Assembly (NCBI RefSeq): GCF_947496075.1
Contig: NZ_CANMBJ010000009.1
Location: 1-64,000, forward strand
Reading direction: 5' to 3'
Length of the DNA: 64,000 nt
DNA from: an uncultured Tateyamaria sp.
Lineage (GTDB): Bacteria > Pseudomonadota > Alphaproteobacteria > Rhodobacterales > Rhodobacteraceae
How positions within the stretch are numbered: the stretch's first letter is position 1; the number at the start of each line of letters is the position of its first letter. This document shows, in pieces, positions 3,560-48,594 of this stretch. The notes beneath the pieces were generated by a model. That model was given only the letters and a program-made list of their open reading frames with translations. It did not search any database and was not told the DNA's origin. The position numbers and the translations under genes are program-made.

Positions 3560-3750
3560 GGCGGTCTCCCCATCGGTGCGTTTCCCCCAGCTTTCCCGCA
3601 AACCGGGCACCGTGCAAGCCTTCTGTGCCTTTGATCCGTTTCTTGCGGGTTACGCAGCAGCGCCGACGCCTGCGCAGGAAACGGGTCGGCGCAGGGTCGC
3701 GCGGTGCGTAGAGCGGGCGCCTGAACACAGATTTCCGAAAGGCAGAAAAC

Positions 3751-39337: not shown

Positions 39338-39400
39338 GGTGCGCCCGCGCACCATTTGCGATCCCGAGTACGGCAAAATGGCATTCTCCTAATCCCCCTT

Positions 39401-39436
39401 CATTTCGCCAAACAAACCGCCCCCGCAGGGCCGGTT
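39401..39436 (+). repeat. Dispersed hairpin repeat A, short variant
   Basis: CATTTCGCCAAACAAACCGC followed by CCCCGCAGGGCCGG; it shares its left half with the bchN copy. It lies in the 277-bp gap between opgG and the lipoprotein gene; I see nothing else in that gap. Confidence 0.55.
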
Positions 39437-39614
39437 GTCATCCGCGCTTGGAAACAGAACAGGTTCTGAAAGCGTGGCAGACATCGCACACGTCAAAAAG
39501 AAGGGCGGTAATCGCTTAAGTAGAGTTGAACTAAGGTTCAAAAGCTCACAATTTGCCGCCGACAATCCAGCGCTCAGGAAACTGGCCATCTGGTTGAAAT
39601 CGAAAGGAAATGAC

Positions 39615-41877: not shown

Positions 41878-42378
41878 CTACCCCAACATCGGCAAGTCGG
41901 TCGGCTCAGGACGCGCGCCGGCCGCCGTCAACATTCCATGAATCTGCCCACGATGATGGGTCTGGTGATTGAACAGATGCGCAAAACACACCGCCGCCGG
42001 TTTCTCAACGCGCACGTCCCCTCCCCCGGGATACCACGCAATCACACCCTCCAGATCGGATGATGCGAGACCTTCGGCCCACGCCGTCACCTCCGCATCC
42101 CGCTCGGTTCGCAACACTTTGAACGCCGCCCAATCCCGCGGCGCCTCCAAAGACACAGGCACGCTCAACTCCGGCCGCGTCTCCCCTGTAATGCGGGCCA
42201 ACCACAGCGCATCATCCCACAGCACATGATTGAAAGTGGCTGCAATAGAGCCGAAAAATGCCCCCCGATCCAGCCACCGTTCGACATCACTCAACGTATC
42301 TGCCGCCGCAACAAGCGATCCGTTCTGCCAGGCGTTGTACCGCGCCATCAGACGCAGATGCTCTACAAACTCAGACAA
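41878..42378 (-). CDS. DinB-family putative metal-dependent hydrolase
   Basis: 166 residues, four-helix DinB/YfiT fold. Seen: MARYNAWQNGSLVAAADTLS at the N-terminus, FGSIAATFNHVLWDDALWLA with the first metal histidine, and AHLFNHQTHHRGQIHGMLTA with the other two. Members include thiol-dependent transferases (bacillithiol, mycothiol, glutathione) and uncharacterised proteins. Its start overlaps the replicase end by 8 bp, so it is probably read from the same message as the replicase. Confidence 0.85.
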   Translation of the reverse strand: MSEFVEHLRLMARYNAWQNGSLVAAADTLSDVERWLDRGAFFGSIAATFNHVLWDDALWLARITGETRPELSVPVSLEAPRDWAAFKVLRTERDAEVTAWAEGLASSDLEGVIAWYPGGGDVRVEKPAAVCFAHLFNHQTHHRGQIHGMLTAAGARPEPTDLPMLG

Positions 42379-43066
42379 CGATCCGCACCTCGCTCACATC
42401 GCCATCCACTTCGCGACACGCCGCCAAAACCCGCCGCTCCAGATGCGTCTGGACATAAGCCCCGTGAAAGCGCGACGGCGCCCGCAGGGTCAACCGCCCC
42501 CCTGCCCGCTCAACCCGCTCCAGCCCGGCAATCCACGACGCGTACACGCCGGCATCCTCCGCATGCAGCACCGCCTGCGCCAGCGCCCACTCCGTCCCCT
42601 TCGACACATCCGGCGCAGCCACGGCCCCTTTCACCGGCAAAGACACCACCTTCGGCGCCTCCTCCTCCGCAGCCCCCATACGCAACTCGAAATCCGGCCC
42701 CACGGCCGCCCAATACGCCTCCGTATCCAGCAACATGCGCTCCAGATCCAAGCCATGCTCAGACACACGGCCCCGCGCACCCTGCCGCTTCACGACCAAC
42801 CAGCCCCGCGCACGCAACAACGCCATCTCGCGCTTCACCGTGCGCTCGTCCACAGACCACAGCCGCGCAATCTCGCGCTGCCCCACGGCCAGCTCGTCAC
42901 GAGCCCAATTGTAGCGCGCCGTGATGAGCGTCATCAGGCGCAGCACCCGCCGCTGCTCATGCTTGCCCTGCGCCAAAGCAAAGGCACCCAAGGCTGTCAG
43001 AATATCGTATTTGCGCGCAGACGCGCCCCGGCCCACCGGCCTCAGCGTTTGCATCACTGCCCTCAT
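42371..43066 (-). CDS. Plasmid replication initiator, DnaA-like type
   Basis: 231 residues. Seen: an N-terminal region with a winged-helix reading (RRVLRLMTLITARYNWARDE, VGQREIARLWSVDERTVKRE, MALLRARGWLVVKRQGARGR) and a C-terminal part resembling the DnaA N-terminal domain (AGVYASWIAGLERVERAGGR, LTLRAPSRFHGAYVQTHLER). This arrangement, next to a divergent parAB, corresponds to the DnaA-like replicases described for Roseobacter plasmids. Start alternatives: ATG 43066 (chosen), ATG 43054, or an upstream ATG at 43108. Divergent from parA across the candidate origin. Confidence 0.85.
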   Translation of the reverse strand: MRAVMQTLRPVGRGASARKYDILTALGAFALAQGKHEQRRVLRLMTLITARYNWARDELAVGQREIARLWSVDERTVKREMALLRARGWLVVKRQGARGRVSEHGLDLERMLLDTEAYWAAVGPDFELRMGAAEEEAPKVVSLPVKGAVAAPDVSKGTEWALAQAVLHAEDAGVYASWIAGLERVERAGGRLTLRAPSRFHGAYVQTHLERRVLAACREVDGDVSEVRIVV

Positions 43067-43191
43067 TTTCTTTGAATGGTCCGGACTGCCCCGAACAACA
43101 CCTGCCAACGGTGGGTTTCCCCGCGGTTCTGGCCGCTTTTCCGTCTCTGCTCCTGATTTGCGTCCGAAGCTGCGATTCTGTCAAGGGCAGA

Positions 43192-43409: not shown

Positions 43410-43425
43410 TGTCCCCGCGGGGACA
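43410..43425. repeat. parS-like palindrome 1
   Basis: Perfect TGTCCCCGCGGGGACA in the origin region, upstream of parA. Confidence 0.85.
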
Positions 43426-43513
43426 ACCATATTCCCCTTTTGCTTTTTCCGCAAAATCAGCGTAAATCTGGAAATGAGCAGAATTAGCGTCCCCAACGGG
43501 ACCAAAAACCACC

Positions 43514-43529
43514 TGTCCCCGCGGGGACA
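43514..43529. repeat. parS-like palindrome 2
   Basis: Perfect TGTCCCCGCGGGGACA 16 bp before the chosen parA ATG. ParB or ParA binding here could repress parAB. Confidence 0.85.
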
Positions 43530-43545
43530 AACGTACAGGCAGCGC

Positions 43546-44850
43546 ATGTTCACGCACACAGACCTCGCCCAACTCCAGGCGCAATCCCTCAAAATGCAGG
43601 GCTTCATCCGCCAGCAAACCTACTCTCCCGAAAGCGAAAAAACGCTTCGCCGCTTCTCAAGCTGGGAGGTGGCGGAACTCATCTTCAAGGCCAACCAATC
43701 CACCCTGCGCGGTCGCCTCGGCGCTGACCCCTCTCTGCCCCAGGGCATCGTCGAAGAAGACGGCCGCCAACGCTGGTACACGCTCGAAGAAATCAACGAG
43801 TTGCGCCGCCGCATCAAGGTGAACCGCAAATCGCTCATGCCCCACCGCCCGGCGAACAAGCGCGCGATCCGCGCCGCCATCGCCAATTTCAAAGGGGGCG
43901 CGGGCAAGTCCACAACAGCCCTCCACTTCGCTCACGCCGCCGCTCTCGACGGCTACCGAGTGCTGTGTGTTGACTTCGACCCACAAGCCACGCTCAGCCA
44001 CTCCATGGGCCTCAGCGACGTTGCCGAGGAATACACCGTCTGGGGCATCATGGCCCGCGATCTGGGGCACGAGACCGACCGTATGAACTCCGCCCTGCGC
44101 GGCGCGGAATCAGGCACCGCCCTGCCCCAGCGCAAACTGCCCGCCGCCATTACCGACATGGGGCTCAACGACCTGCGCGCCAGCGATTTCATAAAGCCCA
44201 CGAACTGGCCCACCATCGACATCGTGCCCAGCTGCGCCAACGCGGCCTTTGTCGAATTTGCCTCCGCCCAGTACAGGCACATCAACCCCGAATGGTCCTT
44301 CTTCGCCGCCGTCTCGCGCTTCCTCGACCAGATCGCGCCTGACACCTACGACCTCATCCTCTTCGATTGCCCGCCCGCCATCGGCTACCAGTCGATGAAC
44401 GCGGTCTTTGCCGCTGACGTGCTCTACATCCCCTCCGGCCCTGGCTACTGGGAATACGACTCAACCACGTCTTTCATCGGCCAGCTCTCCGAAGCGCTCG
44501 AAGATCTCAGCCGCTTCAACGGCCTTGTCCCCGCGGGGACAATGACCCTGCCCAAGACCTTCCTTGACCTTCGCTTCCTGCTCACCCGCTACGAACCGGG
44601 CAATGAACTCCATCGTGCCATGCAGGGCGCGTTCCAGAAAGTCTTCGGCGATCGCGTCTGCGAACACCCGATCGAAATGACCCGCGCTGTCGAACAATCC
44701 GGGCGGTTCCTCAGCAGTATCTACGAAATGGACTACCGCGATATGACCCGCGAAACCTGGCGCCGCGCCCGCGCCTCGTTCGACCGGGCCTATGAAGAAT
44801 TCAAAACCAACCTGGGAACAGCCTGGGACCAATTGGAGGATGAGGCATGA
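43546..44850 (+). CDS. parA: Partition ATPase ParA (RepA-type)
   Basis: 434 residues. ParA ATPases move ParB-parS complexes over the nucleoid to segregate plasmids. Seen: an N-terminal helix-turn-helix region (RRFSSWEVAELIFKANQSTL), AIANFKGGAGKSTTALHFAH (deviant Walker A), VLCVDFDPQATLSHSMG and DLILFDCPPAIGYQSMNAVF, the type Ia layout. I prefer the ATG at 43546 because it leaves a palindrome in the leader rather than in the protein; an ATG at 43474 would add 24 residues including the palindrome-encoded LSPRGQ. A palindrome is translated as VPAGT near residue 330. It overlaps parB (ATGA). Confidence 0.93.
   Translation: MFTHTDLAQLQAQSLKMQGFIRQQTYSPESEKTLRRFSSWEVAELIFKANQSTLRGRLGADPSLPQGIVEEDGRQRWYTLEEINELRRRIKVNRKSLMPHRPANKRAIRAAIANFKGGAGKSTTALHFAHAAALDGYRVLCVDFDPQATLSHSMGLSDVAEEYTVWGIMARDLGHETDRMNSALRGAESGTALPQRKLPAAITDMGLNDLRASDFIKPTNWPTIDIVPSCANAAFVEFASAQYRHINPEWSFFAAVSRFLDQIAPDTYDLILFDCPPAIGYQSMNAVFAADVLYIPSGPGYWEYDSTTSFIGQLSEALEDLSRFNGLVPAGTMTLPKTFLDLRFLLTRYEPGNELHRAMQGAFQKVFGDRVCEHPIEMTRAVEQSGRFLSSIYEMDYRDMTRETWRRARASFDRAYEEFKTNLGTAWDQLEDEA
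44526..44541. repeat. parS-like palindrome 3, inside parA
   Basis: Perfect TGTCCCCGCGGGGACA, read as VPAGT in the parA frame. Confidence 0.85.
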
Positions 44851-45914
44851 GCAAACGCCGCGTATTCGACATCGACTTCGAACCCGACGCGGGTCCCGGG
44901 CCCGAAACTGCACCAGACACCCCTGCCCCGGCCGCTGAGCAAACGCGGCGTGGCCCTATGGCCGCTGCGATCTCGGAAAACGCTACAGCGCTCAGTGAAC
45001 GCCATACGGCGGAGGCTGAAATCCGGGCCGAGAATGATCGCCTTGCACACGAATATATGTCTCTAAAAAGGGACGGAGCCATCGTGGCCCGCGTTCCCCT
45101 CGGGGACGTGGCGATGAAAAAACTGACCCGCGACCGCAGTACAAACCGCGACCCAGACCTTGAAGAGTTAAAGACCTCGATCCGCGACCTCGGCCTCTCG
45201 AATCCGATCCAGGTCGAAGACACCGGCGACGGCTACGAACTGATCCAAGGCTTCCGCCGCCTTAGCGCCTACAAATCTCTCTACGAGGAAACGGGTGACG
45301 ACAAATACGCCTCCATCCCCGCCGTCCTCGTGGCCAAGGGCGAGGCACTCGAAAAACTCTACCGCCGCATGGTCGACGAAAACATGGTGCGGCGAGATAT
45401 TTCGTTCGCCGAGATGGGCCAGCTTGCCGCCAGCTATGCCCGGCAAATGGACCTTGAATTGAACGATGCTATCGCCGTTCTTTTTGCATCTGCGGGACGG
45501 CAAAAACGTCACTACATAGGCAGTTTCAGTCTCTTGATGGACAAACTGGGACCCCGCCTGCAGTTCCCCGAAGCGATCCCCCGCGCCCTCGGTCTGAAGC
45601 TGATCAAGGCGCTGGAAGAACAACCGCGCGCGGTCCAACAACTGAACGTCCTACTAGAACACCAGAAACCCACTGATGCGATTGCTGAACTGGCCGTTCT
45701 GAACAAGGTTGTGGCCCCCAAGCCCGTCAGCGAACAAACAGCACCTTCGACCTCCTCCAAGACCACGATCAAACTGAACCGCAAGGCGGGTGCGGTGAAG
45801 GTCATCGGCGCCAAGGGCAAGATCGAATTGCAGATGAACCGCGACTTCGGATCGGTCGACCCCCGCAAGCTTGAAGCCGCAGTGCGCGCCCTTCTCGACC
45901 AGCTCGATCTGTAA
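44847..45914 (+). CDS. parB: Centromere-binding partition protein ParB
   Basis: 355 residues. ParB binds parS and stimulates ParA. Seen: an acidic N-terminus (FDIDFEPDAGPGPETAPD), the ParB/Srx domain (LEELKTSIRDLGLSNPIQVE; GYELIQGFRRLSAYKSLYEE) and an HTH region (VDENMVRRDISFAEMGQLAA). It is preceded by parA with 4-bp overlap and followed by three palindromes flanking a terminator. The abundant TGTCCCCGCGGGGACA palindromes around the gene are its likely targets. Confidence 0.93.
   Translation: MSKRRVFDIDFEPDAGPGPETAPDTPAPAAEQTRRGPMAAAISENATALSERHTAEAEIRAENDRLAHEYMSLKRDGAIVARVPLGDVAMKKLTRDRSTNRDPDLEELKTSIRDLGLSNPIQVEDTGDGYELIQGFRRLSAYKSLYEETGDDKYASIPAVLVAKGEALEKLYRRMVDENMVRRDISFAEMGQLAASYARQMDLELNDAIAVLFASAGRQKRHYIGSFSLLMDKLGPRLQFPEAIPRALGLKLIKALEEQPRAVQQLNVLLEHQKPTDAIAELAVLNKVVAPKPVSEQTAPSTSSKTTIKLNRKAGAVKVIGAKGKIELQMNRDFGSVDPRKLEAAVRALLDQLDL
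45093..45107. repeat. Degenerate parS-like site inside parB
   Basis: GTTCCCCTCGGGGAC keeps the TCCCC-N2-GGGGA core with one core change and altered flanks. Confidence 0.4.
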
Positions 45915-45916
45915 TC

Positions 45917-45932
45917 TGTCCCCGCGGGGACA
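45917..45932. repeat. parS-like palindrome 4
   Basis: Perfect TGTCCCCGCGGGGACA, 3 bp after the parB stop. Confidence 0.85.
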
Positions 45933-45985
45933 AACACACAAAGGGAACCGTTTTCCCAACGATGCGTACGCTGCGTTAACCCACC

Positions 45986-46001
45986 TGTCCCCGCGGGGAC
46001 A
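45986..46001. repeat. parS-like palindrome 5
   Basis: Perfect TGTCCCCGCGGGGACA just before the parB terminator. Confidence 0.85.
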
Positions 46002-46008
46002 AAACAGA

Positions 46009-46036
46009 AAGCCCGCCAATTCGGCGGGCTTTTTTG
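46009..46036 (+). terminator. Rho-independent terminator after parB
   Basis: AAGCCCGCC-AATTC-GGCGGGCTTTTTT: a 9-bp stem and U tract, flanked by palindromes 5 and 6. It separates parB from the convergent bchO. Confidence 0.9.
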
Positions 46037-46051
46037 TTGGTGCCGGCCAAC

Positions 46052-46067
46052 TGTCCCCGCGGGGACA
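46052..46067. repeat. parS-like palindrome 6
   Basis: Perfect TGTCCCCGCGGGGACA, 7 bp after the bchO stop codon (convergent side). Confidence 0.85.
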
Positions 46068-46074
46068 GATCCGA

Positions 46075-46947
46075 TTAACCCAACTCTTTTTCGATGATTT
46101 CGTTGATCAACCGGGCAAAACCTTCGGGATCTTCCTCATGAGCAAGATGACCCAATTCGGTAAAGCGATGCAGGGTGGCGTTGCGCATCCGGGATGTCAC
46201 CTTTTCGGACACCTCGGGCGGCACAGTGGCGTCCTTGTCGCCGACAATGAAGTGCACAGCCGACGGGTGGTTTGGCAATCTGGCTAGACACGGATCCAAG
46301 GCCCATTGCGCCATCATCAACAGTGTCCCATCCACATGGTTCCGGTCGGCGACCAATTGGCGATATAGCTCGAGGCCATCAGCGTCCAGTTGAGAACCAG
46401 TTGAACTGATAAGCGCTTTGATCCGGTCCGGTCGATTGGACGCGCCCGAAAACAGGGATGCTGTGAATGGCACTGCTGCTAGCACCTTGGCCATCATGGG
46501 AAAGACAAGCCCAGCAAGACCAGTGAACTGTGCCAATGCGGCATTAATCCCAATGACCAAGGGCGCTTGTCCCCGCGGGGACAGATCGCTTTCGGCGAGC
46601 CTCAAAGCAACGGCTGCGCCCGCGGAATGGCCAATGATGACATCGGGGATCCAGCCTTCTTGGTCGCACAGTTTGGCAATGTCTTCAGCCATCTGCTCAA
46701 GTCCGCTGCGATGTCGTGCACCAAGCTGGGTGAATCCCTGTCCTGGCAGGTCCAGAGCGACGATGTGATGACTCTGTGCGAGTATGGGTATGAGGTCGGC
46801 ATAGGAGTGGGTCGATCCCCCGGCACCGTGCAGCATCAGCAGTGTTTTGCCCGCACCTGTTTCCTGGATATGCCAACGATGCACGGGTCCTTGTTCCCGC
46901 CGGGACAGTTCGGAATTGGGCCATGTGTGAATTTGCGCCCAGTCCAT
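46075..46947 (-). CDS. bchO: Alpha/beta hydrolase, magnesium-chelatase accessory protein BchO
   Basis: 290 residues. BchO is an alpha/beta-fold protein encoded with bchD and bchI; it is thought to aid Mg chelation. Seen: LLMLHGAGGSTHSYADL (oxyanion region), IIGHSAGAAVAL (nucleophile elbow with Ser) and FTELGHLAHEEDPEGFARLI (histidine). Two palindrome-derived peptides are embedded: LSPRGQ at residues 122-127 from a perfect site just after the elbow helix, and LSRREQ at 14-19 from a degenerate site. Three bases separate it from bchD. Confidence 0.93.
   Translation of the reverse strand: MDWAQIHTWPNSELSRREQGPVHRWHIQETGAGKTLLMLHGAGGSTHSYADLIPILAQSHHIVALDLPGQGFTQLGARHRSGLEQMAEDIAKLCDQEGWIPDVIIGHSAGAAVALRLAESDLSPRGQAPLVIGINAALAQFTGLAGLVFPMMAKVLAAVPFTASLFSGASNRPDRIKALISSTGSQLDADGLELYRQLVADRNHVDGTLLMMAQWALDPCLARLPNHPSAVHFIVGDKDATVPPEVSEKVTSRMRNATLHRFTELGHLAHEEDPEGFARLINEIIEKELG
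46568..46583. repeat. parS-like palindrome 7, inside bchO
   Basis: Perfect TGTCCCCGCGGGGACA, translated as LSPRGQ (BchO residues 122-127). Confidence 0.85.
46892..46907. repeat. Degenerate parS-like site inside bchO
   Basis: TGTTCCCGCCGGGACA differs from the palindrome at two positions. It is read as LSRREQ, the same register as palindrome 7, consistent with a decayed copy. Confidence 0.6.
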
Positions 46948-46950
46948 GTT

Positions 46951-48594
46951 TTAGCTGTCCAAAGCCGCTTGCACCGCGCCGCTTAGCCGCTGCGCGTCAG
47001 CGCGCGGGAGGGCAACGTAGGGAGCGTCCAAAGTGCGGCTCAGATCCTTCAGAGCGGGTTGAGGGCGGTTGGACATGTCGATCACCAAAGCAGCCGTTCC
47101 CGAGCCGCGCAAGGCCCTCGCCATCGTGGTCGCGTCTTGCGCGGCCTGCGCCCGGTTTGCTTGGCCGTCGAGCGCGATATTTGCGCGTCCGTCAGTGATC
47201 AAAATGACGGTCGGTGTCAGTCCTCTGGCACCGCTTTGCTGCGCGAGCAGGAGGGCGTGTTGCAGGCCGGAGGCAAGGGGGGTGCCGCCTCCGCCGGGAA
47301 GGGCAGAGAGCCGCCGTTTGGTCTGGACCAGGGAACGGGTGGGGGGCAGCAGGGTTTCAGCCTCGGTACCCCTGAATGAGATGAGCGCGACGTGGTCGCG
47401 GCTGGCATAGGCGTCGGCGAGCAGGAGTTCGATGGCACCTTTGGCCTCGCCCAGTCTGGACACGGCGGCTGAGCCGGACGCGTCCACCGCGAAGATCAGG
47501 AGGCGGTCGGATTGTTCGGCGTAGCGTTTTAGGCGGATGTCGGAGGGGCGGATGAGGAGGCCCGAGCGGTTGGGCTGCTGTTGGCGGCGCAGGGGCTGCC
47601 ACGGGGCGGCGGCGCGCAGCGTGGCAACCAGGTCGATGCGGGAGGTGCCGTCGAGCCGTCCGGGGCGCGAGGGTAGGGGGCGGCCGCGGCGGTTGCTGCT
47701 GCGTTTTTGACCGGCGCCAGCACCGCCGGATGTGCGGTTTGTCCCCGCGGGGACAAGTCCGTTCAGGAGGTCTGCTGGGAGCAGGGATTTGATGGTTTCG
47801 ACCAGCATATCTGTGTCCGGGAATGCGTCGTTTTCCTGGTTGTCCCCGCGGGGACAGTCATCACTTGAAGGTGGGGGAGGGGAGCTTTCCTGGTCCTCCA
47901 TGTCCTCTGGGATCGTGGTTGCGCGGTGCGGATAAACGAGAGTTGCGGCAACCTCGACGTCGGCGTCTGTAAGGTGCGCTCGGCCCATGTATTGCGCGTG
48001 GGCGCGCGCGGTGCGCAGGGCGAGGGTGGGAGCCCTGAGGGATGCGATGCCGAAGCGAGTGGCGAGCAGGGTGAGCTGCAAGATCGCGTCTGCCGTTTTT
48101 ACCGCTGTCCCCGCGGGGACAGATTGGGGTGTCCCCGCGGGGACAGCTGGTTTTCGCCCCTCGGGCGAGAGATGGAAGGCGCAACGATCGGCGAGCGGAT
48201 CGGGGGTGCGTTCGTCGGGTTCGATCCCTTCGTCCAGGAGCAAAAAGCCCTGTGTTAGAGACTGATCGGTGAGTTGAGAGAGTTTGGCTGCGAGGGCTGG
48301 CGGGCAGCGTTCGGCCATAGGGAGTTGAGCTATGCAAGGCGCGCTAAAAAATGATTTATTTTCAATGACTTGAGAAAATGATAGCGTGGCGCTTAGGTCG
48401 ATACCGCCAAAGAGTTGTTCGTCTGAGATGGTGACGGGCAGTTTGCGGATGGGCAGGGAAGGGGTGAAGCCTGCGAGTAGCGCGTCGCGGTCGGGGCTGG
48501 CGCGCATGCGTATGACCGCGCCGCCAAGGCCTGCGGGGTCGAGGGCCAGGAGGCGCAGGGCGAGGGCCGCGTTATGCCAGCTTTCCGCTGTCAT
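46951..48594 (-). CDS. bchD: Magnesium chelatase subunit D
   Basis: 547 residues. BchD pairs with BchI in the AAA+ motor of Mg chelatase. Seen: a degenerate N-terminal AAA-like part (residues 1-220), an acidic/proline linker (DMEDQESSPPPPSSDD), a basic stretch (KRSSNRRGRPLPSRPGR) and a C-terminal von Willebrand A domain with MIDAS DASGS at 371-375 and VILITDGRANIAL. Four perfect palindromes are translated in it: VPAGT at 151-155, 159-163 and 281-285, and CPRGD at 247-251. They sit in linker-like stretches, so the gene looks intact. Confidence 0.95.
   Translation of the reverse strand: MTAESWHNAALALRLLALDPAGLGGAVIRMRASPDRDALLAGFTPSLPIRKLPVTISDEQLFGGIDLSATLSFSQVIENKSFFSAPCIAQLPMAERCPPALAAKLSQLTDQSLTQGFLLLDEGIEPDERTPDPLADRCAFHLSPEGRKPAVPAGTPQSVPAGTAVKTADAILQLTLLATRFGIASLRAPTLALRTARAHAQYMGRAHLTDADVEVAATLVYPHRATTIPEDMEDQESSPPPPSSDDCPRGDNQENDAFPDTDMLVETIKSLLPADLLNGLVPAGTNRTSGGAGAGQKRSSNRRGRPLPSRPGRLDGTSRIDLVATLRAAAPWQPLRRQQQPNRSGLLIRPSDIRLKRYAEQSDRLLIFAVDASGSAAVSRLGEAKGAIELLLADAYASRDHVALISFRGTEAETLLPPTRSLVQTKRRLSALPGGGGTPLASGLQHALLLAQQSGARGLTPTVILITDGRANIALDGQANRAQAAQDATTMARALRGSGTAALVIDMSNRPQPALKDLSRTLDAPYVALPRADAQRLSGAVQAALDS
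47740..47755. repeat. parS-like palindrome 8, inside bchD
   Basis: Perfect TGTCCCCGCGGGGACA, translated as VPAGT (BchD 281-285). Confidence 0.85.
47841..47856. repeat. parS-like palindrome 9, inside bchD
   Basis: Perfect TGTCCCCGCGGGGACA, translated as CPRGD (BchD 247-251), a different register from its neighbours. Confidence 0.85.
48106..48121. repeat. parS-like palindrome 10, inside bchD
   Basis: Perfect TGTCCCCGCGGGGACA, translated as VPAGT (BchD 159-163), 24 bp from the next copy. Confidence 0.85.
48130..48145. repeat. parS-like palindrome 11, inside bchD
   Basis: Perfect TGTCCCCGCGGGGACA, translated as VPAGT (BchD 151-155). It is the outermost copy on the right. Confidence 0.85.

Follow-up and report, generated by a model that had tools for sequence, protein, structure and literature searches.

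Candidate chromosomal parS sites for the partition protein of a photosynthesis plasmid in Tateyamaria

In a 64,000-nt stretch of DNA from an uncultured Tateyamaria sp. (assembly GCF_947496075.1, contig NZ_CANMBJ010000009.1, positions 1 to 64,000; hereafter, the window), 11 exact copies of a 16-bp palindrome, TGTCCCCGCGGGGACA, surround the partition genes parA and parB of a photosynthesis plasmid. We found that this array belongs to a set of sites spread over the genome, because the whole source genome (G000; 11 contigs, 4.94 Mb) holds 73 exact copies, compared to none of the reversed motif used as a control. The array had originally been predicted to be a dispersed, centromere-like cluster around parA-parB, but a purely local plasmid centromere is rejected by these counts: 61 of the 73 copies lie off the plasmid contig and, in T. 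omphalii, 45 of 55 copies are chromosomal. The reading that we favor, with a probability of about 0.75, is that the plasmid ParB acts, in addition, at dozens of parS sites kept by selection on the chromosome, a role as nucleoid organizer being included.

The palindrome in the genome, the window and related plasmids

Twelve of the 73 copies are on the plasmid contig (C9, 85,132 bp), where the one outside the window, at C9:81655, lies 33.5 kb from the array. Allowing up to two mismatches adds only 25 places to the exact copies (98 in all, compared to 4 for the control). In G002, taken to be T. omphalii DOK1-4, with contig C1 (3,861,636 bp) taken as its closed chromosome, the 55 exact copies comprise the 45 chromosomal ones and 10 in a plasmid region, leaving none for the other replicons, where 4.2 would be expected (P 0.015; the genome size used was rounded). 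The spacing of the chromosomal sites fits randomness (coefficient of variation 0.955, compared to 0.969 in simulations; Rayleigh p 0.39). With the origin and terminus placed by the GC skew of 20 samples and the canonical parS pair, distances of the T. omphalii sites from the origin were uniform (Kolmogorov-Smirnov p 0.62), a test for their depletion at the terminus found none, and the stretch at 1.37-1.53 Mb, close to where the terminus was placed, contains sites. A takeover of the chromosomal ParABS system was considered and rejected: both the source genome and T. omphalii have two copies of the canonical parS, TGTTTCACGTGAAACA, together at a single place near a strong ParB_N match. An even spread of the 16-mer over the genome had been named in advance as an outcome that would speak against ParB as the binder. 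The spread is indeed genome-wide, yet ParB is kept as the predicted binder because the chromosomal sites also track this protein, as described below.

Within the window, all 11 perfect copies that had been reported were found in place. Two degenerate copies had been reported as well: the one at 46892, TGTTCCCGCCGGGACA, holds up well, with only 2 mismatches to the 16-mer, whereas the one near 45093, GTTCCCCTCGGGGACG, within parB, is weak and relic-like, with 4 mismatches counted by eye. The rest of the 64 kb contains no further place with up to 3 mismatches, in agreement with the earlier remark that no copy was seen elsewhere in this stretch. Dinucleotide shuffles of the window (n=100) gave a mean of 0.79 matches at up to 3 mismatches, with a maximum of 3, and the number of exact copies expected in 64 kb under independent bases is 6e-5; 11 exact copies are far beyond chance. 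As had also been noted, the palindrome is free of stop codons in all frames. Six copies lie in genes (parA 1, bchO 1, bchD 4) and five are intergenic; the copy at 43514 falls within the longest parA open reading frame, yet upstream of the start supported by relatives. The sites are as follows, with no strand assigned.

43410..43425: predicted parS copy 1, rep-parA intergenic
43514..43529: predicted parS copy 2, 5' of the likely parA start
44526..44541: predicted parS copy 3, within parA, reads VPAGT
45093..45108: weak relic-like site, 4 mismatches, within parB
45917..45932: predicted parS copy 4, directly 3' of parB
45986..46001: predicted parS copy 5, parB-bchO intergenic
46052..46067: predicted parS copy 6, parB-bchO intergenic
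46568..46583: predicted parS copy 7, within bchO, reads SPRGQ
46892..46907: degenerate copy, 2 mismatches, within bchO
47740..47755: predicted parS copy 8, within bchD, reads VPAGT
47841..47856: predicted parS copy 9, within bchD, reads CPRGD
48106..48121: predicted parS copy 10, within bchD, reads VPAGT
48130..48145: predicted parS copy 11, within bchD, reads VPAGT

The nearest related plasmid, pDOK1-4-3 of T. omphalii (82.7% identity over 95% of a 9-kb query), carries 10 exact copies. For a broader comparison, 13 of the 117 other matching plasmid records were picked for genus spread, and the 16-bp palindromes in each were listed. In 8 of these 13 plasmids from other strains, the exact 16-mer is repeated around parAB: 5 copies each in Roseobacter ponti and Thalassococcus, 9 in Leisingera caerulea, 14 in Alloyangia, 15 each in L. 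methylohalidivorans and Salipiger CCB-MM3, 4 in Parasedimentitalea and 3 in R. litoralis. Three further plasmids have a repeated palindrome in which the 12-bp core, TCCCCGCGGGGA, is combined with other outer bases, namely GTTCCCCGCGGGGAAC four times in Limimaricola, and CTTCCCCGCGGGGAAG five times in Ketogulonicigenium and twice in P. zhejiangensis. The P. yeei plasmid has CTTCCCCGCGGGGAAG once and the 12-bp core three times. The Ph. porticola plasmid, with no 12-bp core and one TGTCCCTGCAGGGACA only, is the 1 of 13 that does not fit. In the ParB tree, from which Pseudorhodobacter sp. PARRP1 was left out and in which the Actibacterium sequence is partial in the alignment, the three CTT forms of the palindrome correspond to one supported clade; certain distant ParB clades go with other outer bases. 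All nine motif-bearing plasmids mapped have a site close to nt 980 of parA. Because the palindrome accompanies the parAB module across genera and the site near nt 980 of parA is kept, the 16-mer is very probably the parS of the ParB encoded in the array. The suggested comparison with the ParB homologs of DnaA-like plasmids thus came out in favor of ParB as the predicted binder, as did the restriction of the motif, among 20 Tateyamaria genomes, to those with this protein.

Two side observations were made in this survey. In Parasedimentitalea pW43D (L266, 6302-8498), two consecutive genes for ParB N-terminal domains follow parA. A contig labelled Dysgonamonadaceae in a metagenome-assembled genome (MAG) carries 3 exact copies in 142 bp (L045, 350-491), by contamination or through unrelated use of the motif.

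The replication-partition module and the neighboring genes that host sites are listed below.

42371..43108, minus strand: predicted DnaA-like I replication initiator, homolog of the 'DnaA N-terminal domain-containing protein' adjoining parAB in relatives
43546..44850, plus strand: parA, partition ATPase (AAA_31 4e-25, CbiA 1e-17)
44847..45914, plus strand: parB, partition protein of the ParB-CTPase fold, 355 aa (PF02195, Spo0J, Foldseek)
46075..46947, minus strand: bchO, host of copy 7; next to parB in each of the four photosynthesis plasmids examined and, in Actibacterium, next to the ParB relative
46951..48594, minus strand: bchD, host of copies 8-11

The initiator matches DnaA_N at 21.2 bits, below the cut-off of 24.6, and its homologs adjoining parAB are 67-85% identical at five of the six loci with a match and 38% identical at the sixth; its position divergent from parAB and its homology to annotated relatives fit the DnaA-like I type. 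The longest parA reading frame begins at 43474, and the annotated length of 1,305 nt in relatives points to a start at 43546. The predicted parA product is a clear Walker ATPase, adjoining parB. ParB matches PF02195 at 26.5 bits (cut-off 26.3) and Spo0J at 5e-7, and its structure model, which has a mean predicted local distance difference test score (pLDDT) of 67.8 (35-39 for residues 1-30), matched ParB and Noc structures in Foldseek, the best at 1e-8. The protein contains QGFRRLSA and DENMVRRD, instances of the motifs GxRR and ENxxR, which we take to form the pocket for cytidine triphosphate (CTP) in ParB; G135, R137, R138, E178, N179 and R182 are invariant across 19 ParBs. Type I ParABS features found here are a ParB-CTPase domain, the CTP-pocket motifs, a Walker-type ParA next door and repeated palindromes near parAB. 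According to the accessible part of one report (PMC6052148), a DnaA-like I module occupies the central position of a photosynthesis gene cluster; such a position is seen here, with parB adjoining bchO-bchD-bchI and a phytoene desaturase-type gene nearby. Separately, a dispersed repeat of about 43 bp (window 39389-39442; L137 274-329) occurs in many Tateyamaria genomes, with 78-97% identity among the matches listed.

Conservation of the chromosomal sites and their link to ParB

Comparisons of individual sites covered 50 of the 61 off-plasmid sites of the source genome and 36 of the 66 copies of a third genome, G009. At the aligned position in T. omphalii, 22 of the 50 source sites are intact, or 24 if two gap-shifted pairs are counted; in the reverse direction, 23 (or 24) of 45 sites are shared. 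G009 shares 14 of its 36 sites with the source genome under the strict definition and 16 with gap-shifted pairs, and 14 with T. omphalii. The 100-bp flanks of the sites have a mean identity of only 0.71-0.75, and control 16-mers in the same alignments were kept in 6.2-7.5% of cases (7.5% between the source genome and T. omphalii, 6.4% between G009 and the source genome), so that retention of 24 of the 50 sites differs from the control at p 2e-14. In G018, 10 of 15 off-plasmid sites are common to other species under a looser test with self-matches dropped, compared to 6.4% for the control. A comparison by named loci covered 57 query sites, 31 of which have an orthologous source locus, with a site at the same place in 30, a fraction that is conditional given that every source locus carries a site and some loci overlap.

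The turnover of sites can be followed at locus L137, where, in nine close genomes including the source genome, the site at 1243 is exact in 7 and the site at 3626 in 8; both are absent from the other 11 congeners. At the coding site L137:1243, the 11 non-carriers have other bases, nine of them without gaps and two (G006 and G010) with small gaps, so that this copy arose by substitutions rather than by insertion. A comparison of shared sites with motif-poor genomes (three 20-kb stretches by five genomes) yielded 1 comparable position, in G015, with no site and a 5-nt gap. From these alignments we conclude that the chromosomal sites are under purifying selection and that both gain and loss of sites occur.

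The numbers of exact copies in the 20 Tateyamaria genomes are 73, 72, 55, 51, 2, 52, 0, 65, 0 and 66 in G000 to G009, and 71, 0, 0, 0, 2, 0, 68, 95, 22 and 57 in G010 to G019. Fourteen genomes have both copies and a ParB (66-100% identity) and six have neither (best match at most 37%), a raw count that ignores relatedness. The six motif-free genomes show no excess of near-matches (0-3, compared to 0-4 for the control). In a species tree built from one 5-kb chromosomal locus with the palindromes removed and rooted at the midpoint, G018, with its 22 copies, is placed outside a group in which the other high-copy genomes stand together with five of the six motif-free genomes, and a single clade of the 12 high-copy genomes is rejected (approximately unbiased test, p 0.008). 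Because five motif-free genomes branch among carriers, the simplest history is probably early dispersal, after which several lineages lost ParB and the sites together.

Part of the sites adjoin a further element. In 12 of the 50 source off-plasmid sites, TTAACC lies 91-92 bp from the edge of the palindrome, compared to 0.4% of random points.

About 135-bp element beside the palindrome: source-genome loci L129, L140, L142, L146, L149, L151, L153, L155, L159, L162, L168 and L170

Its geometry is fixed, with TTCGG near the palindrome and TTAACC at 91-92 bp, and the stretch between the palindrome and TTAACC forms a degenerate family (67-71% mean column identity) with hardly any indels. A sequence model built without the palindrome recovered further members that had not been used in building it, namely 8 among 44 site loci of T. 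omphalii, plus 3 and 2 among those of G009 and G018, respectively (E 2e-4 to 1e-22), all of which begin 1-8 nt from a palindrome; the element thus accompanies 12 of 50 sites in the source genome and, in the other three genomes, 8 of 45 (T. omphalii), 3 of 36 (G009) and 2 of 15 (G018). At E<0.09, the model had no match in 794 kb of other sequence, including the plasmid of the window and 300 kb each from the T. omphalii chromosome and from motif-poor congeners; the chromosome sample covers 7.8%, a coverage compatible with up to about 39 palindrome-free copies of the element. There was also no match in the Actibacterium, PARRP1, Cypionkella or plasmid loci. We saw no open frame through all 12 copies, no Rfam match for the seven copies tested and no conserved fold of the consensus RNA, in which only the palindrome pairs. 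Element-linked source sites are shared with T. omphalii in 3 of 12 cases, compared to 21 of 38 for the others (p 0.10). A second protein may bind the element; alternatively, some of the sites may have spread along with it.

Relatives outside Tateyamaria and the role of the chromosomal sites

Among 394 genomes drawn from the family, 34 contain exact copies, and many of those listed have few, within a few kb. The standouts are Actibacterium sp. 188UL27-1 (79 copies) and PARRP1 (62 copies). In Actibacterium (G082:C17, L330 5706-10434), bchI-bchD-bchO are followed by a lone parB, and a search limited to the 47.9-kb contig with this gene found no homolog of parA or the initiator; this looks like a photosynthesis cluster that separated from its plasmid module and lost both parA and the initiator while retaining parB. 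In PARRP1, a parB-like gene lies beside a repABC operon, the RepA of which is 31% identical to ParA. Absence of parA refers, in both cases, to the gene neighborhood of the ParB relative. Both ParB relatives are without the N-terminal KRR-FDI...RR(G/S)PMA segment of the aligned parA-linked ParBs (the start codons being uncertain), and both keep the CTP-pocket motifs. The sites that coincide with those of Tateyamaria amount to 1 of 11 distinct sites in Actibacterium, in a coding stretch, 0 of 12 in PARRP1 and 0 of 5 in Cypionkella; because only one coincides, dispersal seems to have been largely independent in these lineages. That two lineages combine a ParB relative and 62-79 sites with no such parA beside the gene suggests that the dispersed role does not need a ParA of this family and points to a role beyond plasmid partition. 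As a side observation, three further genomes (G100, G020 and G106) have 5-14 copies, several on contigs without a listed cluster, and low-level dispersal may exist in further genera.

The sites, their conservation, the link to ParB, the random spacing and the parA-free gene settings are read from sequence, and from these a simple model can be proposed. Under this model, the 16-mer would be parS, the loading site for the ParB encoded in the array, and the plasmid cluster would serve ordinary ParA-ParB partition. The Tateyamaria chromosome would have gained dozens of single, scattered parS copies, by base changes at the one coding site compared with non-carriers, whereas about a quarter of the source-genome copies may have spread with the 135-bp element; selection would keep the chromosomal copies while the plasmid ParB is present. 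Binding, coating and cellular purpose are what we infer: from the biochemistry of ParB and Noc, ParB-CTP clamps would be loaded at the sites and would then coat, or bridge, a large part of the nucleoid; the plasmid protein would thereby double as a chromosome-wide organizer. More tentatively, at rather less than even odds, we suggest that the centromere-binding protein of a plasmid has taken up a role as nucleoid protein across the whole chromosome, which would have evolved dozens of exact parS sites for it under selection, some as parts of the larger compound element. Together with the two further lineages, in which a ParB from this family with no ParA beside it accompanies 60-80 scattered sites, this would be a repeated and still visible Noc-like evolution from a plasmid partition system.

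Several observations weigh against the proposed use of chromosomal sites by the plasmid ParB. About half of the sites are not common to two species, so that any single site is dispensable. G004 and G014 possess ParB (73% and 70% identity) but only 2 copies each; presence of ParB is therefore insufficient for many sites. The species tree rests on one 5-kb locus, which makes the history of joint loss provisional. The ParB relatives of Actibacterium and PARRP1 show only 40-43% identity to the window ParB (42% between the two); the PARRP1 genome is a MAG, and Actibacterium has, on another contig, a divergent DnaA-like parAB (57% identity in ParA) without sites. Finally, about 15 extra parS copies destabilize an IncC plasmid, according to the accessible part of PMC10954446, and some 60 chromosomal sites should therefore burden partition.

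Among the other explanations, the most serious is that the chromosomal copies serve the plasmid: ParB would bridge the plasmid cluster to many points of the nucleoid, and the plasmid would be passed on along with the chromosome, or ParA would act on both together. Random genome-wide spacing would suit such a general handle, the T. omphalii copies are found only on the chromosome (45) and on the photosynthesis gene cluster plasmid (10), and photosynthesis genes on the plasmid align the interests of host and plasmid; the absence of sites from the other T. omphalii replicons fits a chromosomal role or tethering alike. However, ParA would normally be triggered at every site, and no parA of this family lies beside the gene in the two lineages with a ParB relative and many sites. 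We regard tethering as less likely than not, ranking second to a ParA-independent, Noc-like organizer role. Considerably less probable is a defense in which chromosomal sites titrate the ParB of incoming DnaA-like I plasmids and guard the resident one. The same 16-mer does occur in DnaA-like I plasmids of several genera, and an excess of parS copies is known to drive plasmids out (PMC10954446, accessible part), but a resident plasmid with the same site would be harmed equally, and the sites are missing where ParB is missing, although the defense would still pay.

A marginally poorer case can be made for another protein, such as a transcription factor, that reads the chromosomal copies, their identity with the plasmid parS being coincidental or second-hand. 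By crude gene calls made without a gene finder, intergenic positions account for 29 of 50 sites in the source genome and 20 of 45 in T. omphalii, compared to about 20% of a T. omphalii sample, and the 135-bp element that 12 of the 50 source sites abut could bind a further protein. Nevertheless, sites between divergent genes number only 0 of 22 in the source genome and 2 of 19 in T. omphalii (resolved neighbors, same crude calls), and this scarcity disfavors promoter control and led us to reject a set of operators; up to 21 of the 50 source sites, 3 of them at the very start of the called reading frame, lie within genes, a poor placement for operators, and the sites track ParB across 20 genomes. 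Spread of a functionless palindrome by a mobile repeat, in line with the sites that abut the degenerate 135-bp element and the less frequent sharing of such sites in the source genome, appears very unlikely: most sites are without the element, sites are kept in 39-67% of cases compared to 6-7.5% for control 16-mers, which rejects a purely neutral repeat, and the non-carriers at L137:1243 differ mostly by bases rather than gaps. Hardly any weight can be given to intrinsic terminators or RNA hairpins. The sites are palindromic and at times lie just 3' of stop codons, but only 2 of the 50 source sites have a T5 run no more than 12 nt away on one side or the other, on which count terminators are rejected, many sites are within genes, and the exact sequence is kept, not just the pairing.

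If ParB binds the chromosomal sites, as we propose, a plasmid segregation protein is part of the chromosome biology of its host, and these sites are a possible reason why the photosynthesis plasmid might be hard to lose. Extra centromeres are expected to disturb partition, as stated in the accessible part of PMC10954446, whereas here dozens are kept at fixed chromosomal positions across species.

Comparison with known systems

Nearest in form are the palindromes of RepABC plasmids and the parS sites of SGI1. In the accessible parts of papers on type I ParABS systems of Rhodobacterales, RepABC included (PMC5613091, PMC3910554, PMC3910702, PMC9040568), palindromic parS-like anchors surround parAB or repABC and, for repABC, sites inside coding sequences are discussed, as seen here; there, however, parS lies in or near the module, with few at tens of kb, and those parts do not mention dispersed chromosomal copies. 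SGI1, which hijacks the IncC ParABS system, likewise has parS of a plasmid ParB outside the plasmid, and most IncC plasmids carry 12-14 copies; it differs in having two sites on a mobile island rather than dozens conserved along the chromosome (PMC10954446, accessible part). KorB of IncP plasmids, described partly from recall and partly from the same source (PMC10954446), is also a ParB-family protein with 12 palindromic operators, but it regulates plasmid genes, whereas few sites lie between divergent genes here. The genes of Actibacterium and PARRP1, which stand outside a parAB pair, resemble orphan ParB-CTPases, in the accessible account of which (PMC12704722) a plasmid-derived ParB with dispersed sites in Rhodobacterales is not mentioned. 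A search of the literature on ParB, parS, the chromosome and Tateyamaria, by titles and abstract openings and with the 2011 paper on DnaA-like plasmids outside its scope, found, among the papers listed, no report of a plasmid ParB whose parS is present dozens of times on a chromosome; in paper texts, the 14-mer of the core was not found and the 12-mer occurred only in eight papers on unrelated subjects, judging by title. For Streptomyces, a plasmid ParB is reported, in the accessible part of PMC13245405, not to bind the chromosome.

The nearest working analog is Noc of Bacillus subtilis. Noc shares the ParB-CTPase fold (structure matches 7ol9 and 7nfu) and has about 70 scattered palindromic sites (PMC4331003, accessible part), compared to 61 off-plasmid copies in the source genome and 45 on the T. 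omphalii chromosome. According to the same source, the N-terminal position at which Spo0J contacts ParA is taken up in Noc by a membrane helix, and the terminus is free of Noc sites. The ParB described here is, in contrast, plasmid-borne, with an intact adjoining parA and a conserved N-terminal segment, and its putative sites are equally frequent near the inferred terminus; a terminus gap of the Noc type was rejected given their uniform distance from the origin. Because neither such a gap nor the absence of ParA is seen, the likeness to Noc is one of analogy and not a family assignment. If ParB binds the sites, these bacteria show several stages next to one another, namely sites on the plasmid alone, dispersal in part or in full, loss, and relatives in which parB has no parA beside it, so that the origin of Noc-type proteins from ParB becomes directly testable.

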